A stretch of DNA of 64,000 nucleotides from Pontixanthobacter aquaemixtae (GTDB lineage: Bacteria; Pseudomonadota; Alphaproteobacteria; Sphingomonadales; Sphingomonadaceae): assembly GCF_009827395.1 (NCBI RefSeq), contig NZ_WTYX01000002.1:310001-374000 (forward strand), read 5' to 3'. A program made the position numbers and the translations under genes. The notes below the pieces were generated by a model. The model saw nothing but the letters and a program-made list of their open reading frames with translations. It was not told the origin of the DNA and searched no databases. Shown here piece after piece: positions 3,242 through 59,555 of the stretch (position 1 is its first letter; every line of letters begins with the position of its first letter).

Positions 3242-4338
3242 GCGCTTGCTCCTACGCCAGCAGACAATGTCGGCTGGTCGAACGGGCTGAAGCCGTAATG
3301 TTGCAACCAGCGAATATCGCCGTCGAAGAAGGCGCGCAGATCGTCCATCCCATATTTGAGCATCGCCAATCGGTCGACGCCGACGCCGAACGCAAAGCCT
3401 TGCCATTCGTCGGGTTCGAGCCCTGCAAATTCGATAACGCGGCGATTGACCATTCCGCTGCCGAGCAGTTCCATCCAGGCATGACCCGGCGCGTCGCCCG
3501 ATCCGCCCAGCACACGCCGGCCTTTGACAACTTCAAAGCCGACATCGACCTCCACCGAAGGCTCGGTGAACGGGAAATAGGACGGGCGCAGCCGCAAGAC
3601 GATATCGTCGCGCTCGAAGAAGGCTTTGAGGAACGTTTCAAGCGTCCATTTCAGATGGCCAAGATGGATATCCCGGTCGATCACCAGCCCTTCGACCTGA
3701 TGGAACATCGGCGTGTGGGTCGCATCGCTATCGCTGCGATAGACGCGGCCGGGCGCGATAATCCGCACCGGCGCACCTTCATTGACCATCGTGCGGATCT
3801 GCACGGGCGAGGTATGCGTGCGCAGCAACATCCGGCGGCCGTCATCATCATGATCGGGGAAGTAGAATGTGTCATGCATCGCCCGCGCCGGGTGGCTTTC
3901 GGGCATGTTGAGCGCGGTGAAATTGTGCCAGTCGTCTTCGACTTCCGGACCGGTTTTGACCGCGAAACCCAGATCAGCAAAGATTTCTGCGAGCTCGTCC
4001 ATCACCTGACTGACCGGATGCACCGTGCCGCGCGGCGTTTCCGGCGCGGGCAGCGAAAGATCAAGCGTTTCGGTCGCGAGCCGCTCGTTGAGTTCGGCAT
4101 CATCGATCGCTTGCTTGCGCGCGGCAATGGCATCGGCAATTTCGGCACGTGCCTGCTGGATCACCGGCGCTTTCTCGGTGCGTTCTTCAGGCGTCATTTT
4201 GCCCAGTGTCTTGAGCAGCTGGCTGACCCAGCCCTGCTTGCCCAAAGCCTCTACGCGCAGCGCCTCCAGCGCGTCGGGATTCGCCGCAGCAGCAATCGCT
4301 TCCAGCGCATCATCTTTACGTGTTTGCAAATCGTCCAT
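3238..4338 (-). CDS. pheS: Phenylalanyl-tRNA synthetase alpha subunit
   Basis: Catalytic subunit of phenylalanyl-tRNA synthetase, 366 residues. The N-terminal coiled-coil arm (about residues 1-90) is followed by the class II core. Motif 2 is recognisable around RVYRSDSDATHTPMFHQVEG, and the C-terminal GVGVDRLAMLKYGMDDLR is motif 3. In many bacteria rpmI-rplT-pheS-pheT form one string; here two AraC-type genes separate pheS from rplT, so pheST may depend on its own promoter or on readthrough from the AraC gene 68 bases upstream. Confidence 0.97.
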   Translation of the reverse strand: MDDLQTRKDDALEAIAAAANPDALEALRVEALGKQGWVSQLLKTLGKMTPEERTEKAPVIQQARAEIADAIAARKQAIDDAELNERLATETLDLSLPAPETPRGTVHPVSQVMDELAEIFADLGFAVKTGPEVEDDWHNFTALNMPESHPARAMHDTFYFPDHDDDGRRMLLRTHTSPVQIRTMVNEGAPVRIIAPGRVYRSDSDATHTPMFHQVEGLVIDRDIHLGHLKWTLETFLKAFFERDDIVLRLRPSYFPFTEPSVEVDVGFEVVKGRRVLGGSGDAPGHAWMELLGSGMVNRRVIEFAGLEPDEWQGFAFGVGVDRLAMLKYGMDDLRAFFDGDIRWLQHYGFSPFDQPTLSAGVGASA

Positions 4339-4406
4339 AGCGCAGGCGCGCTAGCGGCTATTTCCGCATAAGGCAAAGCAGCAATTGCCGCTGACTTGCG
4401 ATCCGG

Positions 4407-5279
4407 TCAGCCAGGCTTGTCGAGCGTCTGCACTGCAGAGCCGTGGGCACGCATACGTTCGCGCACGAAGCTGGCGATGATCGGATGGTCCATTCCCGCA
4501 TATTCCGATGGCGACATCCCCAGAAAATCCTGACAATCGCGGACGAAATGCGACTGATCGAAATAGAGCGAATCTATCGCGCCGATCCACCCCATAGAAG
4601 GATCGAGCATAAAATCCGCCACGCTGCGCATGAAACGCTGGCGTCGAAGCAGGACCTTCGGAGTAAAACCGAAATGTTTACGGCAAAGCCGTTCCAGAGT
4701 GCGCTGATTGAGGTCGCATTGCTCAGCCATATCGGAAACATGCGGCAATTCCGGTTTCAGAAGCACCGAATGGATTTTTTGGATGCGATGATCCTCTTTG
4801 CCAAATCGCGGTGCCTCCTCGCGGAAGAACCTTTCGATATGGTCCAATTGTTGTTCTTCGGTGGAATTCTGGTCCAACAAACAATCCGCCAGCCCTGCGA
4901 AATGGGCGAACACCGTTTCGGTGCGCCCATCAAACAAGGCATTCACATATTGGTCTGCGGGCTGGCCGACAAAGGTCGCCCAACCGAGTGGCAGTAGACC
5001 AATGCCCCACAGACGCGACCGGCCCAGCGTAAAATCGAGCGGCTGGCTGCTGGGCCCCGTAATAGTGATATCGGCGCCGGAAAGGCTGGAATTGCCGATC
5101 TTGCTATTAGGCAGATCGCCCGAAAAAACTCGGATATTGCCCCATTCAGGGTGCAAGGCATCGGTCACCCGGTCGTCGCCTTCGGGATCAATCTGAACGC
5201 AGTAAAACGTTGTGAAGAACCGCTCCAAATCTTTGGGTGGTTCATAAAAATTGACTGCGACCAAGCCGTCGTCTGACAC
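4407..5279 (-). CDS. AraC/XylS-type transcriptional regulator (first of an adjacent paralogous pair)
   Basis: Predicted DNA-binding regulator of about 290 residues. The N-terminal ~150 residues form an uncharacterised sensor-type domain containing LHPEWGNIR and WGIGLLPLGW. The C-terminal ~100 residues form a double helix-turn-helix of the AraC type, with HVSDMAEQCDLNQRTLERL as the first helix-turn-helix and GFTPKVLLRRQRF as the linker. The longest frame begins at a TTG at 5291, but GGAGGG followed by GTG at 5279 fits a ribosome-binding site better, so I chose GTG. It closely resembles the next gene over its full length. The ligand and targets cannot be read from sequence. Confidence 0.85.
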   Translation of the reverse strand: MSDDGLVAVNFYEPPKDLERFFTTFYCVQIDPEGDDRVTDALHPEWGNIRVFSGDLPNSKIGNSSLSGADITITGPSSQPLDFTLGRSRLWGIGLLPLGWATFVGQPADQYVNALFDGRTETVFAHFAGLADCLLDQNSTEEQQLDHIERFFREEAPRFGKEDHRIQKIHSVLLKPELPHVSDMAEQCDLNQRTLERLCRKHFGFTPKVLLRRQRFMRSVADFMLDPSMGWIGAIDSLYFDQSHFVRDCQDFLGMSPSEYAGMDHPIIASFVRERMRAHGSAVQTLDKPG

Positions 5280-51069: not shown

Positions 51070-51975
51070 TTACTTCGCAGCGGTATCGCTATCCGGCTGC
51101 TGCATTTCCGGTTCGTCAGCATTGTTGCTGGCTTCGGCCTCGCCAGAACCCATCACCAAGGCGTTTCCGCTGGTCGAGAACTGGTTGGCAGGAACAAGCG
51201 AACGCGTGCCATTTGCTTCGACCAGGACTTGCTGCACCTGACCGCGGCCATTGGCGATAAGCTCGCGGACCTTGCCAATCCGCTGTCCGCTGGGCGCAAT
51301 AACAGGCATGCCCGGCGCGACACCGAAAGCGCCCTGGCCATTGGCGGCACTGCTTCCGGCCACCGCCAGCGGCGATGACATCAAGCTGCCATTGCCGCTC
51401 GCTTCACCCGAACCTTCGCCCGATGCGCCGGCAGATGTTGCAGCGCCAGCAACGCCGCGCGCCTGACCAACAGCAGATCCGGCGACGCTGCGCGTTGTGC
51501 CGATCGCACCGCGCGCTTGCGAAACACCGCGATTTGCCGCGCCGCGCACAGCATCGGTGCCAATCAGCTGCGCTTCTGCGCTGCCATTGCCCGAAGCTTC
51601 GGCGTTACCCGACGCGGTCGCGCCCGAAGTGGTCATGGGAATGCTTGCGAGCTGCGAAACGCCGCCCGTCAATCCTGCGTTTGCGTTGCCATTGGCACTG
51701 GCCCGGCCATTGCGGGTGTCCACGCTTTGATTGGCATTTGCGTCCGCTTCGCCCTGGGCTGCAGCGCGCGTGGTGCTTTCGACCGAATCGGTTGTTGTGC
51801 GCACCGTGCGTTTAACCGTGCGAACCGGAGTTGCCGTGTCGATGCCCGAGGTAATCGACCCGCCGAGGCCGCCGCCCAAACCGCCGCCAAGGCCACCGCT
51901 GCCGCCCAGCAATTGTGCCTGCGCGGGAACCGAGATGAGTGTGAGTGCCGATGCGGCAAAAAGTAGAGCTTTCAT
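51070..51975 (-). CDS. Exported Gly/Ala/Ser-rich repetitive protein with PRC-barrel-like C-terminus
   Basis: 301 residues. A signal peptide (MKALLFAASALTLISVPAQAQ) is followed by GGLGGGLGGGLGG, a long Ala/Gly/Ser/Asn/Gln region with repeated phrases (EASGNGSAEAQ, GEASGNGSL), and a C-terminal stretch resembling a PRC barrel (GMPVIAPSGQRIGKVRELIA and VLVEANGTRSLVP). GGAAGGA lies upstream of the ATG at 51975. A GGATT-N17-CGTT promoter element precedes it, placing it in the regulon proposed for the neighbouring ECF sigma factor. Function unknown; surface or matrix protein is a guess. Confidence 0.75.
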   Translation of the reverse strand: MKALLFAASALTLISVPAQAQLLGGSGGLGGGLGGGLGGSITSGIDTATPVRTVKRTVRTTTDSVESTTRAAAQGEADANANQSVDTRNGRASANGNANAGLTGGVSQLASIPMTTSGATASGNAEASGNGSAEAQLIGTDAVRGAANRGVSQARGAIGTTRSVAGSAVGQARGVAGAATSAGASGEGSGEASGNGSLMSSPLAVAGSSAANGQGAFGVAPGMPVIAPSGQRIGKVRELIANGRGQVQQVLVEANGTRSLVPANQFSTSGNALVMGSGEAEASNNADEPEMQQPDSDTAAK

Positions 51976-52026: not shown

Positions 52027-52052
52027 AACGGATCGGGTGTCTGGTTTAATCC
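52027..52052 (-). promoter_or_regulatory. ECF-type promoter element upstream of the Gly-rich protein gene
   Basis: On the minus strand GGATTAAAC starts at 52052 and CGTT ends at 52027, with exactly 17 bases between GGATT and CGTT. The predicted RNA start is near 52020, about 45 bases before the ATG. It shares GGATTAAAC and ACCCGATCCGTT-like bases with the element upstream of the S8 protease. Confidence 0.65.
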
Positions 52053-52082
52053 ATCCGGCCGGAAACTTTTTGTGAGGCGCGC

Positions 52083-53324
52083 TTATTTTTGCGCGCAGCC
52101 GCCGCAAACCAGGCCGTTGCCATAAGTGGCATCGGGGCCCTTTTTGCCCAGATCAACCGCTTGCGCATTGAGAGTCCCGCGCCAGCTTGTCCCGCGCGAC
52201 AGGGCGGCCGCGACCCGCGCGGCGACCAGGGGGGTTGCAAAGGACGTACCGCGAACCTTGATCCGCTTCCCCTTGGCATTGATCGCATAGACATCGGCCC
52301 CAGGGGCAGCATAATCGAGATGCAGCGCGCGGCCCGCCTCGATCAAGGCACGATTGCGGCGGTCCACACCGGTCACCGCAACCACACCCGAATAGGAAGC
52401 GGGATAAGCGGCCGGGGCGGCAGGGCCATCATTGCCCACTGCAGCGACAACGACGACACCCTTGCGCTGCGCTGCGCTGATCGCGCGCTGCACAACCGTA
52501 TTGCGCGGCCCAACCAGGCTGATCGTGACAACACGGCTGCCTTTGGAAGTGAGCCAGCCCAGCCCGCGCGCTATGGCGAGCGCGTTGCCGCCGGCGCGAT
52601 CGGTCCCGTAAACATCGGCGACATGGATGGTTTGCACGCCCGTTTTCCTGAGCAAAGACGCAACCGCGCTGCCGTGATTGCTGGGCACCGGCGCGCCTTC
52701 GGCAAATCCGCGTGTCGAAACAACGGGCACCGATGAGCCGGCGGCACCGTCGATCACGCCCACGGGAACCGAAATGCTGGAGGCTGCGGCGCGCGAGGCA
52801 GTTGCCGCATTGGCGGCCACCGCGGTGCTGCCTTGGGTGAAATGCAGATTGTCGGCCGAGACATCCGCCGATGGCATCAGAGTGGCCAGCGCAGCTTCCG
52901 CTTCTGCCAGTTTCATTGCTTTTGGCACCGAAAGCCGCACTACCGAAAAATCGAGGCCTTCGATCTGTTCTTCGCCCAGCAATGCGAAGCCCGCGGCTTT
53001 TGCGCGCGCAATCTCGGCGGTGGTGACGCCCATGACCAGCAATTCACCACGCCGTGCGGGCGCGCCTTCTGCATCCAGTTCAATGCTATCGCGATTCTTG
53101 CGCACGAGCCGGTTGATGTCGCGCAATCTCTGCTCCGCCAAGCGTTCAACCTGCGCGAGCGTGCCGCGCTCCAGATCCGAAACCGAATTGGTCACAGGGC
53201 GCAGCACGTCTCCGGCACCGGGCACACCAACCGGCGGCAGACTAAGCTGCGCGGCTACTGGCGCAGCGCCGAGCACCACAAAGGCTGCCAGCGCAAACAG
53301 ATGTTTGAGATTGAAACGGGCCAT
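52083..53324 (-). CDS. Exported subtilisin-like S8 serine protease
   Basis: 413 residues. Signal peptide (LFALAAFVVLGAAPVAAQ), a long N-terminal region (about 27-185) that may be a propeptide, then the peptidase domain with the full triad: Asp192 in VGVIDGAAG, His217 in SNHGSAVAS and Ser361 in RGTSFATPLVAA, plus oxyanion Asn298 in AVGNDGPA. The C-terminus ends with a Cys pair (VCGGCAQK). Divergent from the sigma factor gene across an 80-bp region carrying back-to-back promoter elements. Confidence 0.92.
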   Translation of the reverse strand: MARFNLKHLFALAAFVVLGAAPVAAQLSLPPVGVPGAGDVLRPVTNSVSDLERGTLAQVERLAEQRLRDINRLVRKNRDSIELDAEGAPARRGELLVMGVTTAEIARAKAAGFALLGEEQIEGLDFSVVRLSVPKAMKLAEAEAALATLMPSADVSADNLHFTQGSTAVAANAATASRAAASSISVPVGVIDGAAGSSVPVVSTRGFAEGAPVPSNHGSAVASLLRKTGVQTIHVADVYGTDRAGGNALAIARGLGWLTSKGSRVVTISLVGPRNTVVQRAISAAQRKGVVVVAAVGNDGPAAPAAYPASYSGVVAVTGVDRRNRALIEAGRALHLDYAAPGADVYAINAKGKRIKVRGTSFATPLVAARVAAALSRGTSWRGTLNAQAVDLGKKGPDATYGNGLVCGGCAQK

Positions 53325-53356
53325 AGGTTCTTTTTTCCATATTTTGCATTAAGCAT

Positions 53357-53382
53357 GGATGAAACGAACCGGGTCATCCGTT
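53357..53382 (+). promoter_or_regulatory. ECF-type promoter element for the sigma factor gene
   Basis: GGATGAAAC at 53357-53365 and CGTT at 53379-53382, again with 17 bases between GGATG and CGTT. With the minus-strand element it forms a near-palindrome, GGATGAAACG...CGTTTAATCC (53357-53388). This would let one sigma factor drive both divergent genes, including its own. Confidence 0.65.
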
Positions 53383-53388
53383 TAATCC
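53363..53388 (-). promoter_or_regulatory. ECF-type promoter element for the S8 protease
   Basis: On the minus strand GGATTAAAC (from 53388) and CGTT (53366-53363) are spaced 17 bases apart. The RNA start would fall near 53356, about 32 bases before the protease ATG. It interlocks with the plus-strand element 53357-53382. Confidence 0.65.
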
Positions 53389-53404
53389 ATGGAAGGCAAA
53401 GACA

Positions 53405-53893
53405 CTGAGTAACCGTTTCGAGCAGGATATGCTTGCGATATTGCCCCGGCTGCGTCGTTTCGCAATCGGGCTGTCGGGCAATCCGGCAGACGGGGATGAT
53501 CTTTGCCAGATGACAATCGAGCGCGCGCTGACCAATCGCGAGAAGTGGCAGGAAGGCACGCGGCTCGACAGCTGGATGTACCGGATTATGCGCAATATCT
53601 ATATCGATGAAGGACGGGCCAGCACGCGCAGGGTCCAGACCTTTGTAGACGAGGAAGCAGGCCTTTCGGTCGGTGCCGATGGCGGGCAGGAAGCCCAGGT
53701 CGAATTGACCAATGTCGACCGCGCTATGGCAAAGCTGCCCGAAGATCAACGCGAAGCCGTGCTGCTCGTGATGGTCGAAGGCTATGCCTATAAAGAAGCC
53801 GCAGAGATTGTCGGCTGCCCGGTCGGCACGCTCAATTCGCGGCTGGTGCGCGGGCGCGATGCGCTGATGGAAATTCTGGGAGACGGATCATGA
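53405..53893 (+). CDS. ECF-family RNA polymerase sigma factor, probable CTG start
   Basis: About 162 residues. Region 2 (NPADGDDLCQMTIERAL, LDSWMYRIMRNIYIDE) and region 4 (LPEDQREAVLLVMVEGYAYK, EAAEIVGCPVGTLNSRLVRG) are intact. The first ATG in frame is at 53429 and has no spaced ribosome-binding site. CTG at 53405 adds SNRFEQD, as in related proteins, and has GGAAGG eight bases upstream, so CTG initiation is my choice. ATGA overlap with the anti-sigma gene. No PhyR or NepR gene is nearby, so this is not the general-stress EcfG locus. Confidence 0.88.
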   Translation: MSNRFEQDMLAILPRLRRFAIGLSGNPADGDDLCQMTIERALTNREKWQEGTRLDSWMYRIMRNIYIDEGRASTRRVQTFVDEEAGLSVGADGGQEAQVELTNVDRAMAKLPEDQREAVLLVMVEGYAYKEAAEIVGCPVGTLNSRLVRGRDALMEILGDGS

Positions 53894-54600
53894 TGATCAC
53901 GCCTGAAGAACTCGCTGCTTTTGCCGATGGCGAAGTGACCGGCGCACGCGAAGCGGAAATCGCCGCGATGGTCGATGCCGATCCAGAGCTGGCGCGCAAA
54001 GTGGCCGCGCATAAAGCGCTCAAGGATCAGCTGGGCGCGCATTTCGCGCCGATTCTGGAGCAGGAACTCCCCGAAAACCTGACTGCGCCGCTCAAGAGCG
54101 AAGCCGAAATTGTCGACTTCCAGGCTGCCAAAGACGCGCGGACGCCCAAGGCAGCGAATGATGACAACCCCGCGATAAAACGTTGGGGCCGGTTCGCCGG
54201 ACCAGTGCTGGCGGCATCGCTGGCGGTTGCGATATTCTTGCCGCGCGGTGGCGACGGGGCAGAAGACTATGCCGATGTCCAGCTGGCGGCCGTGCTCGAC
54301 AGTCAACTGGTTGCCGAACAAGGCAGCAATGCGGACACGCGGATATTGCTGAGCTTCCAGAATGACGATGGCGAATTTTGCCGTGCATTCAGCGGCGCCG
54401 ACGCGTCGGGCATTGCTTGCCGCGACACCGAAGGCTGGCAATTGCGCCACTCGGGCGGCGCGGGCGACCAACAAAGCACCGAATTCCGCCAGGCAGGCAA
54501 TGAAGATGCCGATCTGATGGCGATTGTACAGGAGATGGCAGCCGGACCGGCGCTTGACCAGGACCAAGAAGCGGCAGCGAAAGAGAAGGGCTGGCAGTAA
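53890..54600 (+). CDS. Membrane anti-sigma factor
   Basis: 236 residues. The N-terminal cytoplasmic part (TPEELAAFADGEVTGAREAE) resembles anti-sigma domains without the zinc HxxxCxxC motif. One membrane helix lies at about residues 102-118 (FAGPVLAASLAVAIFL), and a periplasmic domain follows with two Cys (EFCRAF, IACRDTEGW) that could form a disulfide. ATGA overlap with the sigma gene, the usual arrangement. Release of the sigma factor probably responds to an envelope signal, inferred from topology. Confidence 0.82.
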   Translation: MMITPEELAAFADGEVTGAREAEIAAMVDADPELARKVAAHKALKDQLGAHFAPILEQELPENLTAPLKSEAEIVDFQAAKDARTPKAANDDNPAIKRWGRFAGPVLAASLAVAIFLPRGGDGAEDYADVQLAAVLDSQLVAEQGSNADTRILLSFQNDDGEFCRAFSGADASGIACRDTEGWQLRHSGGAGDQQSTEFRQAGNEDADLMAIVQEMAAGPALDQDQEAAAKEKGWQ

Positions 54601-54721
54601 AGCCGGCCCGCTTTTGCAAGAGAGCTGGCCAGAGGACCTTGGATACTTAAGTTCCCGCCAAAGAGGGCGGGACTCGCGTTTGTGAAAGCGCATCTATCCA
54701 TCAACGCCTTTACAGCGCGCA

Positions 54722-54751
54722 CAAAAAAGGGCCGGCGCATTGCCGACCCTT
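54722..54751 (-). terminator. Intrinsic terminator of the 115-residue protein gene
   Basis: A 10-bp stem with one G-U pair (54727-54736 with 54742-54751), 5-base loop, and on the minus strand a T run. It lies 25 bases past the stop at 54777. A second, weaker 7-bp stem at 54653-54672 may end the anti-sigma transcript from the other side. Confidence 0.82.
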
Positions 54752-54776
54752 TCCCGCCCAGGGGGGCTGTTCGGAT

Positions 54777-55124
54777 TTAACCGACGGTCACCGAACCCAT
54801 CCGGTAACCGCGCTCTGCCATTTCCTTGACATAGTGGCGGCGCTCTCCGGCCAGCTCGAATGTATATTCTTCCCACGCATCGCGAATATCTTCGATGTCG
54901 CTGGCACGATTGAGATCGCTTGCCAGCTCTTTTTGCGCTTCGTTGATATCGCCGCGGTAGTCGAACCAGAAACGGTTTTCGATACCTGCAATGGGGCTGG
55001 TGATGATTCGCTTTTCCTCTTCGCGGGCCAGCGCTTCTTCGGCCAGCAGAGGTGCGGTAGCATTGGCCGTGATCGACAGCGTGCCGATTGCGACAGCGAG
55101 AGTGGCTGCGAGTGTCTTTTTCAT
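54777..55124 (-). CDS. Small exported protein of unknown function (candidate sigma target)
   Basis: 115 residues. Signal peptide MKKTLAATLAVAIGTLSITA with cleavage near ANA. The mature part is charged and probably helical (AEEALAREEEKRI, INEAQKELASDLNRASDIED, EMAERGYRMGSVTVG). I do not recognise a domain. The open frame extends upstream, but the Lys-rich signal start at 55124 is clear. A GGATT-N17-CGTT element upstream links it to the ECF locus. Confidence 0.78.
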   Translation of the reverse strand: MKKTLAATLAVAIGTLSITANATAPLLAEEALAREEEKRIITSPIAGIENRFWFDYRGDINEAQKELASDLNRASDIEDIRDAWEEYTFELAGERRHYVKEMAERGYRMGSVTVG

Positions 55125-55178
55125 AATTCGTCTCCAATTGCTGATCTGGGCCGCGATTTGCCGGCCAGTCACAGGGGA

Positions 55179-55204
55179 AACGAGCGCCACGCGGAATTTA
55201 ATCC
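55179..55204 (-). promoter_or_regulatory. ECF-type promoter element upstream of the 115-residue protein gene
   Basis: On the minus strand GGATTAAAT begins at 55204 and CGTT ends at 55179, with 17 bases between GGATT and CGTT. The RNA start near 55172 gives a ~48-base leader. It matches the other three elements in GGATKAAA and CGTT but not in the spacer core. Confidence 0.6.
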
Positions 55205-55240: not shown

Positions 55241-55274
55241 TGATGGTGCTGCTAGGGAGAATTGAACTCCCGAC
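55241..55274 (-). pseudogene. Orphan tRNA-Thr 3'-end fragment (34-bp direct repeat, copy 1)
   Basis: This 34-bp block is identical to 59478-59511, the 3' end of the intact tRNA-Thr gene including T-arm, acceptor 3' strand and encoded CCA. Similarity carries on with single mismatches a few bases either side. No D-arm or anticodon arm follows; instead there is a short palindrome, TTCGCC-GAA-GGCGAA, at 55275-55289. It cannot be a working tRNA. It has the form of the att remnant left at the far end of an element integrated into a tRNA gene. Confidence 0.85.
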
Positions 55275-55308
55275 TTCGCCGAAGGCGAACGGGCCTATGC
55301 CATACGCG

Positions 55309-56064
55309 CTAAGAGTTCGGCATGTCAGCTGAACCGAAATGAAAATCCGGCAGCGAATCGAACGCCTTGCGCAGAGCCTCTCCCCAACCAGTCGAAATCT
55401 GCTGGAAATAAGGATCGGAACGCTCGACGCGCTGCTGTGCTGTGATTGCGAAACTGTCCGTCGCATAAGCTTGAACATCGAGCGGCAAATCAACCGCCAG
55501 ATTCGCCCTGATTGTCGAATCGAAAGAAACGAGCATCAGTTTGACAGCATCCTCAAAGGACATTTCTGGATTAAACGCCCTCACCAAAATCGGCCTGCCA
55601 TATTTGGTTTCACCGCTCTGGAAAAAGGGCGCATCATCGCTCGCCTCGATGAAATTTCCTTCGGGATAAATCAGAAAAAGTCGAGGTTCGCTGCCTTTAA
55701 TCTGGCCGCCGATAATCAGCGTTGCGCCAAAGGGCGATGCAGCCTCTTGGCCCTCAGGTGCAAAGGTCTTCACAACTTCGCGCAAAGTTTCTCCCACAAT
55801 CGTAGCGACCTGGAACATCGAAGGTGCTTCGAGTATGGAGGGGCTACGATCTTCTGGTGCTTTGCTGCGTTCATCGAGCAAACTGACAACAGCCTGGGTC
55901 GTCGCGAGATTGCCTGCGGACAACAACGTGATCACGCGCTCGCCGGGCTTTTCCCAGCTCTTCATCTTGCACACTTGCGAGACATCATCGACGCCCGCAT
56001 TTGTGCGAGTGTCAGACATGAAAACGAGACCCTTATTGAGCCGAAGCCCGATACAATATGTCAT
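55309..56064 (-). CDS. Anbu, proteasome-like peptidase subunit
   Basis: 251-residue member of the Ntn-hydrolase proteasome/HslV group known as Anbu (ancestral beta subunit). The start MTYCIGLRLNKGLVFMSDTR would expose Thr2 as the catalytic nucleophile after Met removal; Asp18 in MSDTRTNAG and the Lys region MKSWEKPGERV are typical. FGATLIIGGQIKGSEPRLFL is the usual core. Encoded last in the operon, 43 bases after the transglutaminase. Its natural substrate is unknown. Confidence 0.93.
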   Translation of the reverse strand: MTYCIGLRLNKGLVFMSDTRTNAGVDDVSQVCKMKSWEKPGERVITLLSAGNLATTQAVVSLLDERSKAPEDRSPSILEAPSMFQVATIVGETLREVVKTFAPEGQEAASPFGATLIIGGQIKGSEPRLFLIYPEGNFIEASDDAPFFQSGETKYGRPILVRAFNPEMSFEDAVKLMLVSFDSTIRANLAVDLPLDVQAYATDSFAITAQQRVERSDPYFQQISTGWGEALRKAFDSLPDFHFGSADMPNS

Positions 56065-56107
56065 TATCTAATTACCCAGCGGTCGCGCATCATCCGCGCC
56101 GTGCGAA

Positions 56108-56908
56108 TTACTGCTGAACCTGCAATTGAACAACCATATTCTCTTTGGCGTTGCCGTATCGCATACCTGATATCGGCGAGGCATCTCGATAGTCGAGGCC
56201 GGTTGCGACACGGATATAGCGCTCATCGGGGGAATAGCCGTTTGACACATCAAACCCGACCCAGCCGATTCCGCCAAAATGAGCCTCCGCCCAGGCGTGA
56301 GTTGCGTCTTGATCGATCCGGTCATTCATCATCAGATATCCCGACACATATCGCGCCGGGAAACCCAATTTCCGCATCGCTGTCAGGAAAATATGGGCAT
56401 GATCCTGACAAACCCCGCCGCCTGCGTCCAACGCACCTTCGGCAGTTGAATCGGCATCGGTCCGGCCGACTAAATAGGGAACCCGCTCAACGATCAGCGC
56501 CGATAAACGGTGAGCTTTTTCAATGTCGTCGCTGTGATCACTGCCAAGTTGCTCGATCAGAGCGGAAATACCCGCGCCGCCCTGCGTCAAATCGGTTTCG
56601 CGCTTGAAATTCCAAAGCGGCATATAGCCATTGTGTGGGCCGACGACGCCCGAAGCCTCGCTAACTTCGATTTCGCCATCGCAGCTTATGGCGATCTCGC
56701 TCCCGCCTGGATCAATACTGATCAATTCGACATGGTTATTGTATTGATCCGTGAATGCGAGCTCCTTCTTGCCGCCTTCAATCGTCAAATCCCAGCTGAG
56801 CGCCTTCTGCCCGTCCCGCTCCATCGGCGTGAGGCGGACTTGTTGCAGGCCGTAATCAACCGGCACGTCATATTGATAGTGTGTTGTGTGCTTGACAGAG
56901 AGCTGCAT
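56108..56908 (-). CDS. Transglutaminase-like cysteine peptidase (Anbu cluster)
   Basis: 266 residues. An N-terminal bacterial transglutaminase-like domain (VKHTTHYQYDVPVDYGLQQV) precedes the core with Cys167 in GGGVCQDHAH, His204 in DATHAWAEAHF and Asp220 in WVGFDVSNG, a complete papain-like triad. In this gene family the enzyme may cleave or form amide bonds. Two bases separate it from the alpha-E gene upstream. Confidence 0.92.
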   Translation of the reverse strand: MQLSVKHTTHYQYDVPVDYGLQQVRLTPMERDGQKALSWDLTIEGGKKELAFTDQYNNHVELISIDPGGSEIAISCDGEIEVSEASGVVGPHNGYMPLWNFKRETDLTQGGAGISALIEQLGSDHSDDIEKAHRLSALIVERVPYLVGRTDADSTAEGALDAGGGVCQDHAHIFLTAMRKLGFPARYVSGYLMMNDRIDQDATHAWAEAHFGGIGWVGFDVSNGYSPDERYIRVATGLDYRDASPISGMRYGNAKENMVVQLQVQQ

Positions 56909-56910
56909 TG

Positions 56911-57852
56911 TTATCCCTGAAACCGGTAATCTTGTTCGATTTGCGTTGCGAGCTGGCCATTCTGCATCGTGAATTGTTCGATAAACTCGTGCAGCCCTTG
57001 ATCGAAGATTTCGTCAATAGTGCTTTTCTGCAAGCGCTCGATAGACGCCTTTGCGGCAACACAACTAGCGTGATTCTCACCGTAGTCCTGTTCTAGCTTA
57101 GCGAGATTGTCCGAGATCTTCTGACTGCAGAAAATCAGGGACCGCGGCATATTTTGGTAAAGGATCAGGAACTCCGCAATATTGGACGGGCTGATCTCTG
57201 CGCCATTGAGCCAGCGATAGGCGCGCTGCGCGGAAACTGACCGCAAAATCGTTTCCCACTGCATTACGTCGAGCGCCGAGCCGACTTGCGCAATCGAGGG
57301 CAGCAGCAGGTAGTATTTAACGTCGAGAATGCGCGCAGTATTGTCCGCTCGCTCGACAAATGTACCCAAGCGAATGAAATTGAAGCCGTCATTGCGAAGC
57401 AGCGTTCCCTCCGTAGCACCGCGCACCTGCGCGCTCAGCCGCCGAATGGTGGCCAATGCGTCGGGCAAATCCTGCTCATTAACCGGAGAGGACAATATCT
57501 GCTTCAGAGTCATCCAACTTTCATTGGTCGCTTCCCACACTTCACGGGTCAGCGCGGTGCGCACCAACCGGGCATTGTCTCGCGCCTGTTTCATCGTCGA
57601 AATGACGCTTGAAGGGTTGGCTGGATCGCGCAACATGAAGTCGACCACTTTGGCCGATTCATAATCATCGTGCTGGCCATCATACCCTTCGAGCGAACCA
57701 GCTGTTGTTAGAATCGACTTCCATTCCGATTTGGCCGTTGCCGAGCGGGTCAAGGCGATCCGAAAGCCGGCATCGAGTAGCCGGGCATTGTTTTCGGTGC
57801 GCTCAAGATACCGGAACATCCAGAACAGACCGCCTGCTGTTTTTCCTAGCAT
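56911..57852 (-). CDS. Alpha-E domain protein (Anbu cluster)
   Basis: 313-residue, mainly helical alpha-E (COG2307-type) protein. The family start MLGKTAGGLFWMFRYLERTE and later FIRLGTFVERADNTARILDV are characteristic. It always accompanies the circularly permuted ATP-grasp protein, apparently as a partner; no catalytic role is established. Starts three bases after the ATP-grasp stop. Confidence 0.92.
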   Translation of the reverse strand: MLGKTAGGLFWMFRYLERTENNARLLDAGFRIALTRSATAKSEWKSILTTAGSLEGYDGQHDDYESAKVVDFMLRDPANPSSVISTMKQARDNARLVRTALTREVWEATNESWMTLKQILSSPVNEQDLPDALATIRRLSAQVRGATEGTLLRNDGFNFIRLGTFVERADNTARILDVKYYLLLPSIAQVGSALDVMQWETILRSVSAQRAYRWLNGAEISPSNIAEFLILYQNMPRSLIFCSQKISDNLAKLEQDYGENHASCVAAKASIERLQKSTIDEIFDQGLHEFIEQFTMQNGQLATQIEQDYRFQG

Positions 57853-57855
57853 CGT

Positions 57856-59289
57856 CTATTCCTCCAGCACCCAAGTGTCCTTGGTGCCGCCTCCCTGACT
57901 ACTGTTTACCACCAGCGACCCTTCGGTCATCGCAACCCGCGTTAGGCCGCCCGGTGTAATGTCGATCCGTTCCGGCGAGACCAGTACAAATGGCCGCAGA
58001 TCGACATGCCGCGGCGAGAGGCCCTTCTTGGTGAAAATCGGCACAGTGGAGAGCGCCAATGTTGGCTGCGCGATGTAGTTGGGGGCGTTGTCGATTAACT
58101 TGGCTCTGAAGTCCTCAACCTCTTTCTTGCTCGCCGCCGGACCGACCAGCATGCCATACCCGCCCGATCCGTGGACCTCTTTGACAACAAGTTCAGCGAG
58201 ATTGTCGAGCACATATTGCAATTGATCAGGCTCGCTGCAGCGCCACGTCTGAACATTGTTCAACAGCGGCCTTTCTCCGGTGTAGAATTCCACGATGTCG
58301 GGCATGTAACTATAGAGCGCCTTGTCGTCGGCAATCCCGGTTCCTGGGGCATTTGCAATGGTGATGCCACCAGAGCGGTACACATCCATGATCCCGGGCA
58401 CGCCAAGCATTGAATCAGGATTGAAGTTCATCGGGTCGAGATATTCGTCATCGACCCGCCGGTAGATAACATCGATTGGCGTGTAACCCTGCGTCGTTCG
58501 CATCGTAATCCGCCCGTCAACGACGCGAAGATCGTGTCCTTCAACAAGTTCGGCGCCCATCTGGTCAGCCAGATAGCTGTGCTCGAAATAGGCCGAGTTG
58601 TGGATGCCCGGGGTCAGGACCGCGACCACTGGTTTGCCGGTGCACGCGTCTGGCGCAGACGCGGCGAGCGAACGGCGCAAATTGGTCGGGTAATCGCTAA
58701 CCTGTTGGACTGCGATTCGTGAAAACAGCTCGGGAAACATCTGGAGCATCGTCTCGCGGTTTTCGAGCATGTACGACACGCCCGAGGGCGTCCGGGCGTT
58801 GTCTTCCAGAACGAAGAACTCGTCGGGCCCGGTGCGCACGATATCGGTGCCCACGATATGGGTGTAGACTCCACCCGGCGGATTGACGCCCACCATATGC
58901 GGCAGGAACGCGGCGTTATTGGCAATTAACTCGGTCGGAATGCGGCCCGCCCGCAATATTTCCTGCCGGTGGTAGATATCGTGCAGGAACGCGTTGATCG
59001 CGCGCACACGCTGCTCTATCCCGCGCGAAAGCCTTCGCCACTCGGACGCAGAAATAATTCTCGGGACCACGTCGAAAGGAATAAGCCGCTCGTCGGCATC
59101 CTCTTCGCCGTAGACGTTGAAGGTAATCCCTGTAGTCCGGAAAAACGCTTCCGCCTGGGCGGACTTTTGCAGAATGCGGGCCGGATCTTCATTATCCAAC
59201 CAGCCCCCATATGTGGAAAATGGCTCTCGAACAGAGCCGACATGCGCGCTCTTGTTATCAGTTAGCATCTCATCGAAAAAGTCGATCAC
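57856..59289 (-). CDS. Circularly permuted ATP-grasp protein (Anbu cluster)
   Basis: 477 residues, COG2308-type, a predicted peptide or amide ligase that uses ATP. Landmarks: YGEEDADERLIPFDVVPRII, GTDIVRTGPDEFFVLEDNAR, VLTPGIHNSAYFEHSYLADQ, VVKEVHGSGGYGMLVGP and RHVDLRPFVLVSPERIDITP. First gene of the operon. Upstream (59290-59480) there is a TTGACA at 59453-59448 on the minus strand without a good -10 box, and a 6-bp stem at 59426-59443 that could terminate the tRNA transcript. Confidence 0.93.
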   Translation of the reverse strand: MIDFFDEMLTDNKSAHVGSVREPFSTYGGWLDNEDPARILQKSAQAEAFFRTTGITFNVYGEEDADERLIPFDVVPRIISASEWRRLSRGIEQRVRAINAFLHDIYHRQEILRAGRIPTELIANNAAFLPHMVGVNPPGGVYTHIVGTDIVRTGPDEFFVLEDNARTPSGVSYMLENRETMLQMFPELFSRIAVQQVSDYPTNLRRSLAASAPDACTGKPVVAVLTPGIHNSAYFEHSYLADQMGAELVEGHDLRVVDGRITMRTTQGYTPIDVIYRRVDDEYLDPMNFNPDSMLGVPGIMDVYRSGGITIANAPGTGIADDKALYSYMPDIVEFYTGERPLLNNVQTWRCSEPDQLQYVLDNLAELVVKEVHGSGGYGMLVGPAASKKEVEDFRAKLIDNAPNYIAQPTLALSTVPIFTKKGLSPRHVDLRPFVLVSPERIDITPGGLTRVAMTEGSLVVNSSQGGGTKDTWVLEE

Positions 59290-59477: not shown

Positions 59478-59511
59478 TGATGGTGCTGCTAGGGAGAATT
59501 GAACTCCCGAC
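59478..59511 (-). repeat. 34-bp direct repeat, copy 2 (inside tRNA-Thr)
   Basis: Identical to 55241-55274. It covers the last part of the tRNA-Thr gene (T-arm, acceptor 3' strand, CCA) and three flanking bases. Confidence 0.95.
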
Positions 59512-59555
59512 CTCGTCATTACCAATGACGCGCTCTACCACTGAGCTACAGCAGC
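59481..59555 (-). tRNA. tRNA-Thr (anticodon GGT), CCA encoded
   Basis: Minus-strand cloverleaf: acceptor GCTGCTG with TAGCAGC, D-arm GCTCAGTGGTAGAGC, anticodon stem CGTCA/TGACG with loop TTGGTAA (anticodon GGT), T-arm GGGAG-TTCAATT-CTCCC, and CCA at 59481-59483. Intact, and the apparent target of the cassette described at 55241-59511. Confidence 0.96.

Follow-up and report, generated by a model that had tools for sequence, protein, structure and literature searches.

A putative self-contained ECF sigma factor circuit with an interlocked sigma/protease promoter box in Pontixanthobacter aquaemixtae

Which genes does a sigma factor control when copies of one promoter-like motif stand in front of its own gene and of several neighbours? 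The question is raised by a locus in Pontixanthobacter aquaemixtae that lies in a 64,000-nucleotide stretch of DNA (the window; positions 310,001 to 374,000 of contig NZ_WTYX01000002.1), to which coordinates refer unless another sequence is named. Here four copies of the motif GGATKAAA-N14-CGTT surround a gene for an extracytoplasmic function (ECF) sigma factor and face that gene, a gene for an S8 (subtilisin-family) serine protease and two genes for predicted exported proteins, one rich in glycine and alanine (Gly-rich below) and one of 115 residues. A preliminary description of the locus proposed that this single sigma factor reads GGATK...CGTT before its own operon, the protease gene and the two other genes, a proposal supported by the conservation of the four promoters, by the co-occurrence of motif and sigma factor across 149 genomes and, in one sublineage, by -35 elements that changed together. 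On this comparison of sequences we consider it likely (probability about 0.83) that the locus forms a self-contained, autoregulated ECF sigma factor circuit with four local promoters, two of which, those of the sigma factor and the protease, are interlocked in one box.

All four sites were found with the coordinates and strands originally given. The predicted promoter of the operon of sigma and anti-sigma factor spans 53357..53382 (+ strand; -35 GGATGAAA, -10 CGTT) and that of the protease gene 53363..53388 (- strand; -35 GGATTAAA, -10 CGTT), while those predicted for the Gly-rich gene and the 115-residue protein gene span 52027..52052 and 55179..55204 respectively (both - strand). Each faces a start codon within the 22-60 bases described, at 22 bases (from CTG) or 46 bases (from ATG) for the sigma factor, 38 for the protease, 51 for the Gly-rich protein and 54 for the 115-residue protein. 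We then scanned the 2.98-Mb genome for the shorter pattern GGATK-N17-CGTT, which yielded 53 sites against 10 in a reversed control, or 1.1 per 64 kb, in line with the earlier expectation of about one, and ~0.06 per 3.2 kb. At this rate a post-hoc Poisson calculation gives ~4e-7 for four sites in 3.2 kb. All four are present and clustered as described, but those of the sigma factor and the protease are not independent, since they have 20 of their 26 bases in common and form one interlocked box; counting them as one event gives 3e-5. The full pattern GGATKAAA-N14-CGTT occurs five times exactly in the genome, four times at this locus and once overlapping the ATG of a lipoprotein-like gene, and is absent from the reversed control. 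What is unusual is the clustering together with the longer common GGATKAAA, rather than the number of short motifs, and the regulon looks private to this locus.

A search of genome contigs for related loci yielded 47 (numbered with L below), of which 40 (L001-L038, L040 and L041) were kept as close orthologues with 73-85% identity and seven more distant ones were excluded. The order sigma, anti-sigma, S8, Gly-rich is constant in 40/40 (the anti-sigma gene of L027 being truncated by the contig end), and the 115-residue protein gene is present in 26. The sigma promoter site is exact in all 40 loci and the protease site in 38, with one -35 base altered in two Croceicoccus loci (L033 and L034). 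We sought the two solitary promoters in the 300 bases preceding the aligned start, permitting mismatches with a fixed spacer. The Gly-rich promoter has at most one mismatch in 37/40 relatives (12 exact, 25 with one, two with two and one with four mismatches), against 0/40 with two or fewer on the opposite strand and, among 800 shuffles, none with one or fewer and 12 with two. The promoter of the 115-residue protein gene has at most one mismatch in 24 of the 26 relatives with the gene (12 exact, 12 with one, two with two), while among 520 shuffles one had one mismatch and 11 had two. Loss of the motif from relatives that keep the genes, which the preliminary description had named as counting against it, amounts among the 40 loci to the missing Gly-rich site of L017 and the changed protease-site base of L033 and L034; in these loci, orthologues retaining the genes nearly always retain the motif.

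The sigma factor gene (53405..53893, + strand) encodes sigma2 and sigma4 regions, with Pfam matches to Sigma70_r2 and Sigma70_r4_2 (9.3e-17) and only general ECF matches in Pfam and NCBIfam. The protein has 162 residues from a CTG at 53405 or 154 from an alternative ATG at 53429. The position of 53405 is CTG in 36/42 aligned rows and TTG in three, an ATG lies one or two codons upstream in L004, L007 and L028, L032 has only an ATA nearby, and a Novosphingobium homologue (L152) is annotated from the same CTG, which is probably the start codon. The overlapping anti-sigma factor gene (53890..54600, + strand; RseA_N E-value 0.0091, under the cut-off) encodes a helical N-terminal domain, one hydrophobic stretch at residues 99-117 that hydropathy predicts to span the membrane, and an alpha/beta C-terminal domain with two invariant cysteines that would be periplasmic. 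A structure model (mean predicted local distance difference test score, pLDDT, 81.6; predicted template modelling score 0.50) was confident for the N-terminal helices and the C-terminal domain; compared with PDB folds it gave no match with E < 0.001, and a PDB sequence search was also empty.

The S8 protease gene (52083..53324, - strand; Peptidase_S8 1.5e-15) encodes a signal-like N terminus and predicted export, as does that of the Gly-rich protein (51070..51975, - strand), whose C-terminal part resembles a PRC-barrel (E 0.0011, 19.4 bits, below the cut-off of 21.2; one homologue is annotated as PRC-barrel). In L017 (3956-5896, - strand; a Novosphingobium metagenome bin), the sole locus of the 40 without the Gly-rich promoter, these two genes form a single reading frame of 647 residues, and such a fused frame without a separate promoter hints that the two proteins cooperate. 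The 115-residue protein (54777..55124, - strand), helical and with a signal-like N terminus, matches no Pfam or NCBIfam family above cut-off, has 28 invariant columns across 23 sequences and was modelled as three helices (mean pLDDT 78.5) without a match to PDB folds at E < 0.001; a scan of viral contigs for this protein returned no relative.

Rather than being an effector only, the protease could also act on the anti-sigma factor as its site-1 protease, cleaving the periplasmic domain and so closing a positive feedback loop. Its gene adjoins those of the sigma and anti-sigma factors in 40/40 relatives and in distant alphaproteobacteria (lying ~2 kb off in one gammaproteobacterium), the protease has a signal-like N terminus, and the C-terminal domain of the anti-sigma factor lies beyond the predicted transmembrane stretch. 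The neighbouring targets of ECF sigma factors are, however, often plain effectors, and the activation mechanism of the Sinorhizobium meliloti ECF26 sigma factors is termed hypothetical in PMC6180224; we regard this role of the protease as doubtful.

Between the sigma factor and protease genes, the two promoters overlap in a predicted interlocked bidirectional promoter box (53357..53388, assigned to neither strand; GGATGAAACG-N12-CGTTTAATCC). It is a 32-bp near-palindrome of the form GGATKAAACG-N12-CGTTTMATCC in which each -35 element runs into the opposite -10 element, the AAACG after each GGATK containing the complement of the opposite CGTT. Across 41 rows (the 40 loci and the window) AATGC replaces AATCC in two, the spacer varies and the ends are nearly fixed. 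The rows had been selected by the forward site's GGATKAAA and CGTT, so that the invariance of these letters is partly by construction; independent of the selection pattern are the CG at positions 9-10, found in 41/41, and the distal TMATCC. At the solitary sites of the Gly-rich and 115-residue protein genes the same positions are CG in only 24/65 (Fisher 1e-12, a value inflated by shared ancestry). The CG of the box is thus explained by the opposite -10 element, an argument for the use of both promoters. Using a relaxed pattern, we found the box in 85/85 loci assigned to the same clade (some genomes counted twice, and only part of these loci being in the tree described below) and in 0/11 related loci outside it; that the interlocking arose once would be the parsimonious account. 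Next to the box, where the protease mRNA is predicted to begin, the eight bases TTAAGCAT (53349..53356) are conserved in 38 to 41 of the 41 rows at each column, and the bases 3' of CGTT at the solitary promoters differ from it. If transcription starts nine bases after CGTT, as in S. meliloti, the predicted starts fall at ~53391 (+) and ~53354 (-), ~37 bp apart.

A near-palindrome between divergent genes stands where operators usually stand, and it might be the operator of a conventional dimeric activator or repressor, its likeness to -35 and -10 elements being secondary. We consider this very improbable: the asymmetric 26-bp half stands alone, in promoter orientation, before two other genes, where it is mostly non-palindromic; both arms, with their constant spacer length, fit the -35/-10 layout of ECF promoters; and the sigma factor gene is the sole transcription-factor gene among the five genes compared.

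The distribution of the box follows that of the sigma factor. Among 149 genomes from the family (numbered with G below), exact paired sites with an offset of 6 occur in 34. Sigma factor matches with E <= 1.4e-41, a cut-off chosen after viewing the list, define 38 genomes with 39 loci, which include all 34 pair-bearing genomes; the remaining four (G111, G035, G122 and G042) have the same box with changes. The exact pair is found in 0/111 genomes without a sigma factor of the window type, 98 of which do have a sigma factor match with E <= 1e-20. The next five, weaker matches are in G050, G041, G002 (a second copy), G013 and G003. Among these five, GGAATA-N13-CGTT stands before the sigma factor gene in L164, L166 and L168 and before the S8 gene in L164, L165 and L166; L167 has it before neither gene, and the S8 genes of L167 and L168 are not in divergent orientation. 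Two genomes carry two modules each, G002 an interlocked and a GGAATA-type one (L166) and G071 two of the interlocked type (L173 and L174). Within the genus of the window genome, eight genomes were compared and only the window genome itself (G000) has the sigma factor, which was either gained by transfer or repeatedly lost.

In G122 and G042 the -35 element reads GGAAGAA at the sigma, S8 and Gly-rich promoters, except for GGACGAA at the S8 promoter of G122. Position 4 of the -35 element thus lacks T in 6/6 cases, against T in 32/33 cases in 11 other loci of the clade, where the exception is an out-of-register match at the Gly-rich promoter of L180. The simplest account of a joint loss of T at three promoters is a single reader protein. 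Residue 140 of the sigma factor, which we take to lie in the sigma4 recognition helix, is Val in 52/54 sequences of the GGAT type (Ile and Cys in the other two) and Ala in both sequences of the shifted lineage. In GGAATA-type relatives it is Ala in five, Met in one and Ser in one of seven, with a gap in the eighth, and two of the five with Ala (L039 and L164) look like one species. Val140 is a candidate determinant of GGAT versus GGAA reading, as suggested by a correlation among related sequences only.

The preliminary description compared the sigma factor with EcfG, a comparison that we found misplaced, the closest studied relative being RpoE6 of S. meliloti (ECF26). EcfG, the general stress sigma factor (ECF15), recognizes GGAAC-N16/17-CGTT; it resembles the window sites in the -10 element CGTT and differs from them in the -35 element and from the locus in having a NepR-type partner. 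Beside the window sigma factor there is no NepR/PhyR partner switch, its partner being a membrane-type anti-sigma factor, and all four sites read GGATK and not GGAAC. The genome's own EcfG is encoded at C2:889903, overlapped by a NepR-like gene (recognized by eye), and is the next best match at ~42%. In a tree of sigma factors, eight EcfG rows, all from the genus of the window genome, are split with 100/100 support from 33 other rows including RpoE6, and a sphingomonad clade of 27 rows is supported at 99/98, with Chakrabartia, Paracoccus and RpoE6 outside; the tree includes a single accepted ECF26 reference and no additional ECF group, and its inner order is partly unresolved.

Searching annotated plasmids, we found on pSymA of S. 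meliloti a gene (78998-79456) 45.5% identical to the window sigma factor. The record shows no annotation at this position; we identify the gene as rpoE6 from the adjacent SMa0142 promoter, which is given in Table 1 of PMC6180224. The window sigma factor agrees with ECF26 in having sigma2 and sigma4 only, in grouping with RpoE6 and not with EcfG, and in a downstream anti-sigma factor with an N-terminal domain, one predicted transmembrane stretch and a presumed periplasmic domain, for which the EcfR anti-sigma proteins of S. meliloti give the reference layout (PMC6180224). Divergence from a serine protease gene, described as widely conserved in ECF26 (PMC6180224), was found in 40/40 relatives and at the RpoE6 locus. 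The ECF26 promoter consensus is GGAATA/GT (PMC6180224), and as its -35 element is unmatched we call the window sigma factor ECF26-related and not a member. That the four sites are EcfG promoters, or shared with EcfG, and the local sigma factor an EcfG paralogue is very improbable: the -10 CGTT is the same, EcfG-type promoter examples are tabulated in PMC6180224, EcfG is the next best match in the genome and the targets of RpoE6 overlap those of the EcfG-type RpoE2 in S. meliloti (PMC6180224), but the EcfG rows form a separate group, seven congeners have an EcfG-level match without this sigma factor (the motif being in neither of the two scanned) and no genome without this sigma factor has the paired sites, and on tree, partner protein and motif distribution we reject EcfG paralogy as the main explanation.

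The RpoE6-EcfR6-SMa0142 locus resembles the window in the related sigma factor and in its homologues of the S8 protease (hidden Markov model E-value 6.6e-56) and of the anti-sigma factor (1.5e-14). Overproduction of RpoE6 raises expression of the divergent serine protease gene SMa0142, and its most prominent targets lie near the sigma factor gene (PMC6180224). Unlike those of the window, its published promoters are of the GGAATA type, and the sites that we found there mostly span 25 bp; for the rpoE6 promoter RpoD/RpoH-like motifs are given (PMC6180224), and between the rpoE6 and protease genes we found the protease site alone. A profile search detected no homologue of the Gly-rich or 115-residue protein at this locus. 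The same divergent sigma/S8 layout with an anti-sigma factor recurs in S8-linked modules of Chakrabartia, Paracoccus, Aminobacter and further genomes from the family (L039, L154, L155 and L164-L166). There, however, the sigma factor and S8 genes of L039, L154, L164 and L166 each have a GGAATA-CGTT promoter site of their own (the site strings of L039 and L164 are identical, and the two may be one species), and in L155 and L165 only that of S8 was found. We detected neither an interlocked box nor a Gly-rich or 115-residue partner in these GGAATA modules. Among the 11 related loci outside the clade, nine have at least one GGAATA-CGTT site and two (L042 and L167) have none. In the S. meliloti-type loci L151, L156 and L155, GGAATA-CGTT sites lie near or inside the sigma and anti-sigma factor genes and beyond; local clustering of targets may thus be common to modules of this kind. 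In L156 (Sinorhizobium sp. K101; 3432-4834, - strand) two overlapping frames make up the S8 homologue, which is probably broken, while the sigma and anti-sigma factor genes are open.

We also looked for further regulon members in the genome. A scan permitting one mismatch gave 25 sites (9 in the reversed control), the five exact ones among them. All but one of the 20 sites with a mismatch fall inside an open frame of 100 codons or more, although such frames mean little where the DNA is GC-rich, and downstream starts were sought on the + strand of each stretch only. The sole extra target found, an unproven candidate, is an intergenic GGATTAAG-N14-CGTT at C1:656435-656460 (- strand), ~67 bases upstream of the possible start of a small membrane protein with matches in only 6/148 other genomes.

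Several points weigh against the proposed circuit. Within the window the number of short motifs is marginally above chance, with four found against a shuffle mean of 1.44 and 4/100 shuffles reaching four. On the opposite strand of the 115-residue protein upstream regions, 3/26 have a site with at most two mismatches, which in one case is exact. Shuffle and Fisher values overstate significance, because the sequences compared are related and hence not independent. The seven congeners lack the sigma factor, and how the window genome uses it is thus uncheckable in its nearest relatives. The ECF26 -35 element GGAATA is unmatched, the window having GGATKAAA in a site one base longer as a whole, with a -10 CGTT that includes GT. 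The target scan spanned exact and one-mismatch sites, leaving room for degenerate targets with at least two mismatches or another spacing.

In the proposed circuit, a membrane-spanning anti-sigma factor would hold the sigma factor until an envelope signal frees it, as expected from its family. The free sigma factor with RNA polymerase would then read GGATKAAA-N14-CGTT at four promoters, as their conservation suggests, driving its own operon, the S8 protease, the Gly-rich PRC-barrel-like protein and the small helical protein, all at this locus. On the 32-bp box one polymerase would bind in one of two orientations at a time, and sharing the box would couple positive autoregulation to effector output and make the two compete. 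Bidirectional sigma70 promoters of Escherichia coli likewise consist of pseudo-symmetric DNA on which polymerase takes two mutually exclusive orientations, but they share the -10 element and their starts are commonly 10, 18 or 23 bp apart (PMC12825309). In the window box, unlike these, the -35 element overlaps the opposite -10 element, the predicted starts lie further apart and an ECF sigma factor is the proposed reader. Competition at the E. coli promoters arises only when one direction is strong (PMC12825309). We tentatively suggest, at somewhat less than even odds, that the box represents a distinct promoter architecture, which makes polymerase choose between more sigma factor and more protease and so caps positive feedback, that it arose once, at the root of a single sphingomonad sigma factor clade, with the -35 change from GGAATA to GGATK, insulating the circuit from the GGAATA-reading paralogues that coexist with it in at least G002, and that the T-less sublineage shifted its promoters together, with Val140 as candidate determinant. 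A heterologous ECF26 promoter responds to three S. meliloti sigma factors, RpoE1, RpoE4 and RpoE6 (PMC10880074); cross-talk among GGAATA-reading sigma factors is thus real, and insulation by a changed -35 element would be useful.

Next to the circuit, the last 35 bases of a tRNA-Thr gene (59481-59555) are repeated with 97% identity at 55244-55278, just past the promoter of the 115-residue protein gene, and the 4.2 kb between the repeats may be a segment inserted at the tRNA or its remnant. Among 41 loci checked for this repeat, only a 23-base partial match was found (L018). We do not count as a new RNA the match to Rfam at 55246 (E 0.011, below the gathering score), as it sits on this repeat. 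Between the repeats (55309-59289) lie four reading frames on the same strand, of 251, 266, 313 and 477 residues, which we presume to resemble a proteasome-like/transglutaminase/alpha-E/ATP-grasp cluster.

The S8-linked ECF26 arrangement is already published, and the function of the S8-linked ECF sigma factor of S. meliloti is described as undefined (PMC6180224). Among the literature matches listed, which include few subscription papers, the window locus, an interlocked ECF promoter pair and a link to the Gly-rich or 115-residue protein are not described, an absence that carries little weight. The locus extends the predicted regulon of such an S8-linked sigma factor by two conserved exported proteins. 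It offers a small, complete circuit whose promoters are legible from sequence and which has natural variants with a concerted -35 shift, so that the co-evolution of sigma factor and promoter and the insulation of paralogous ECF sigma factors become directly testable. The interlocked box would be a compact natural device that couples autoregulation and output through competition for polymerase, and it may serve as a part for orthogonal switches.

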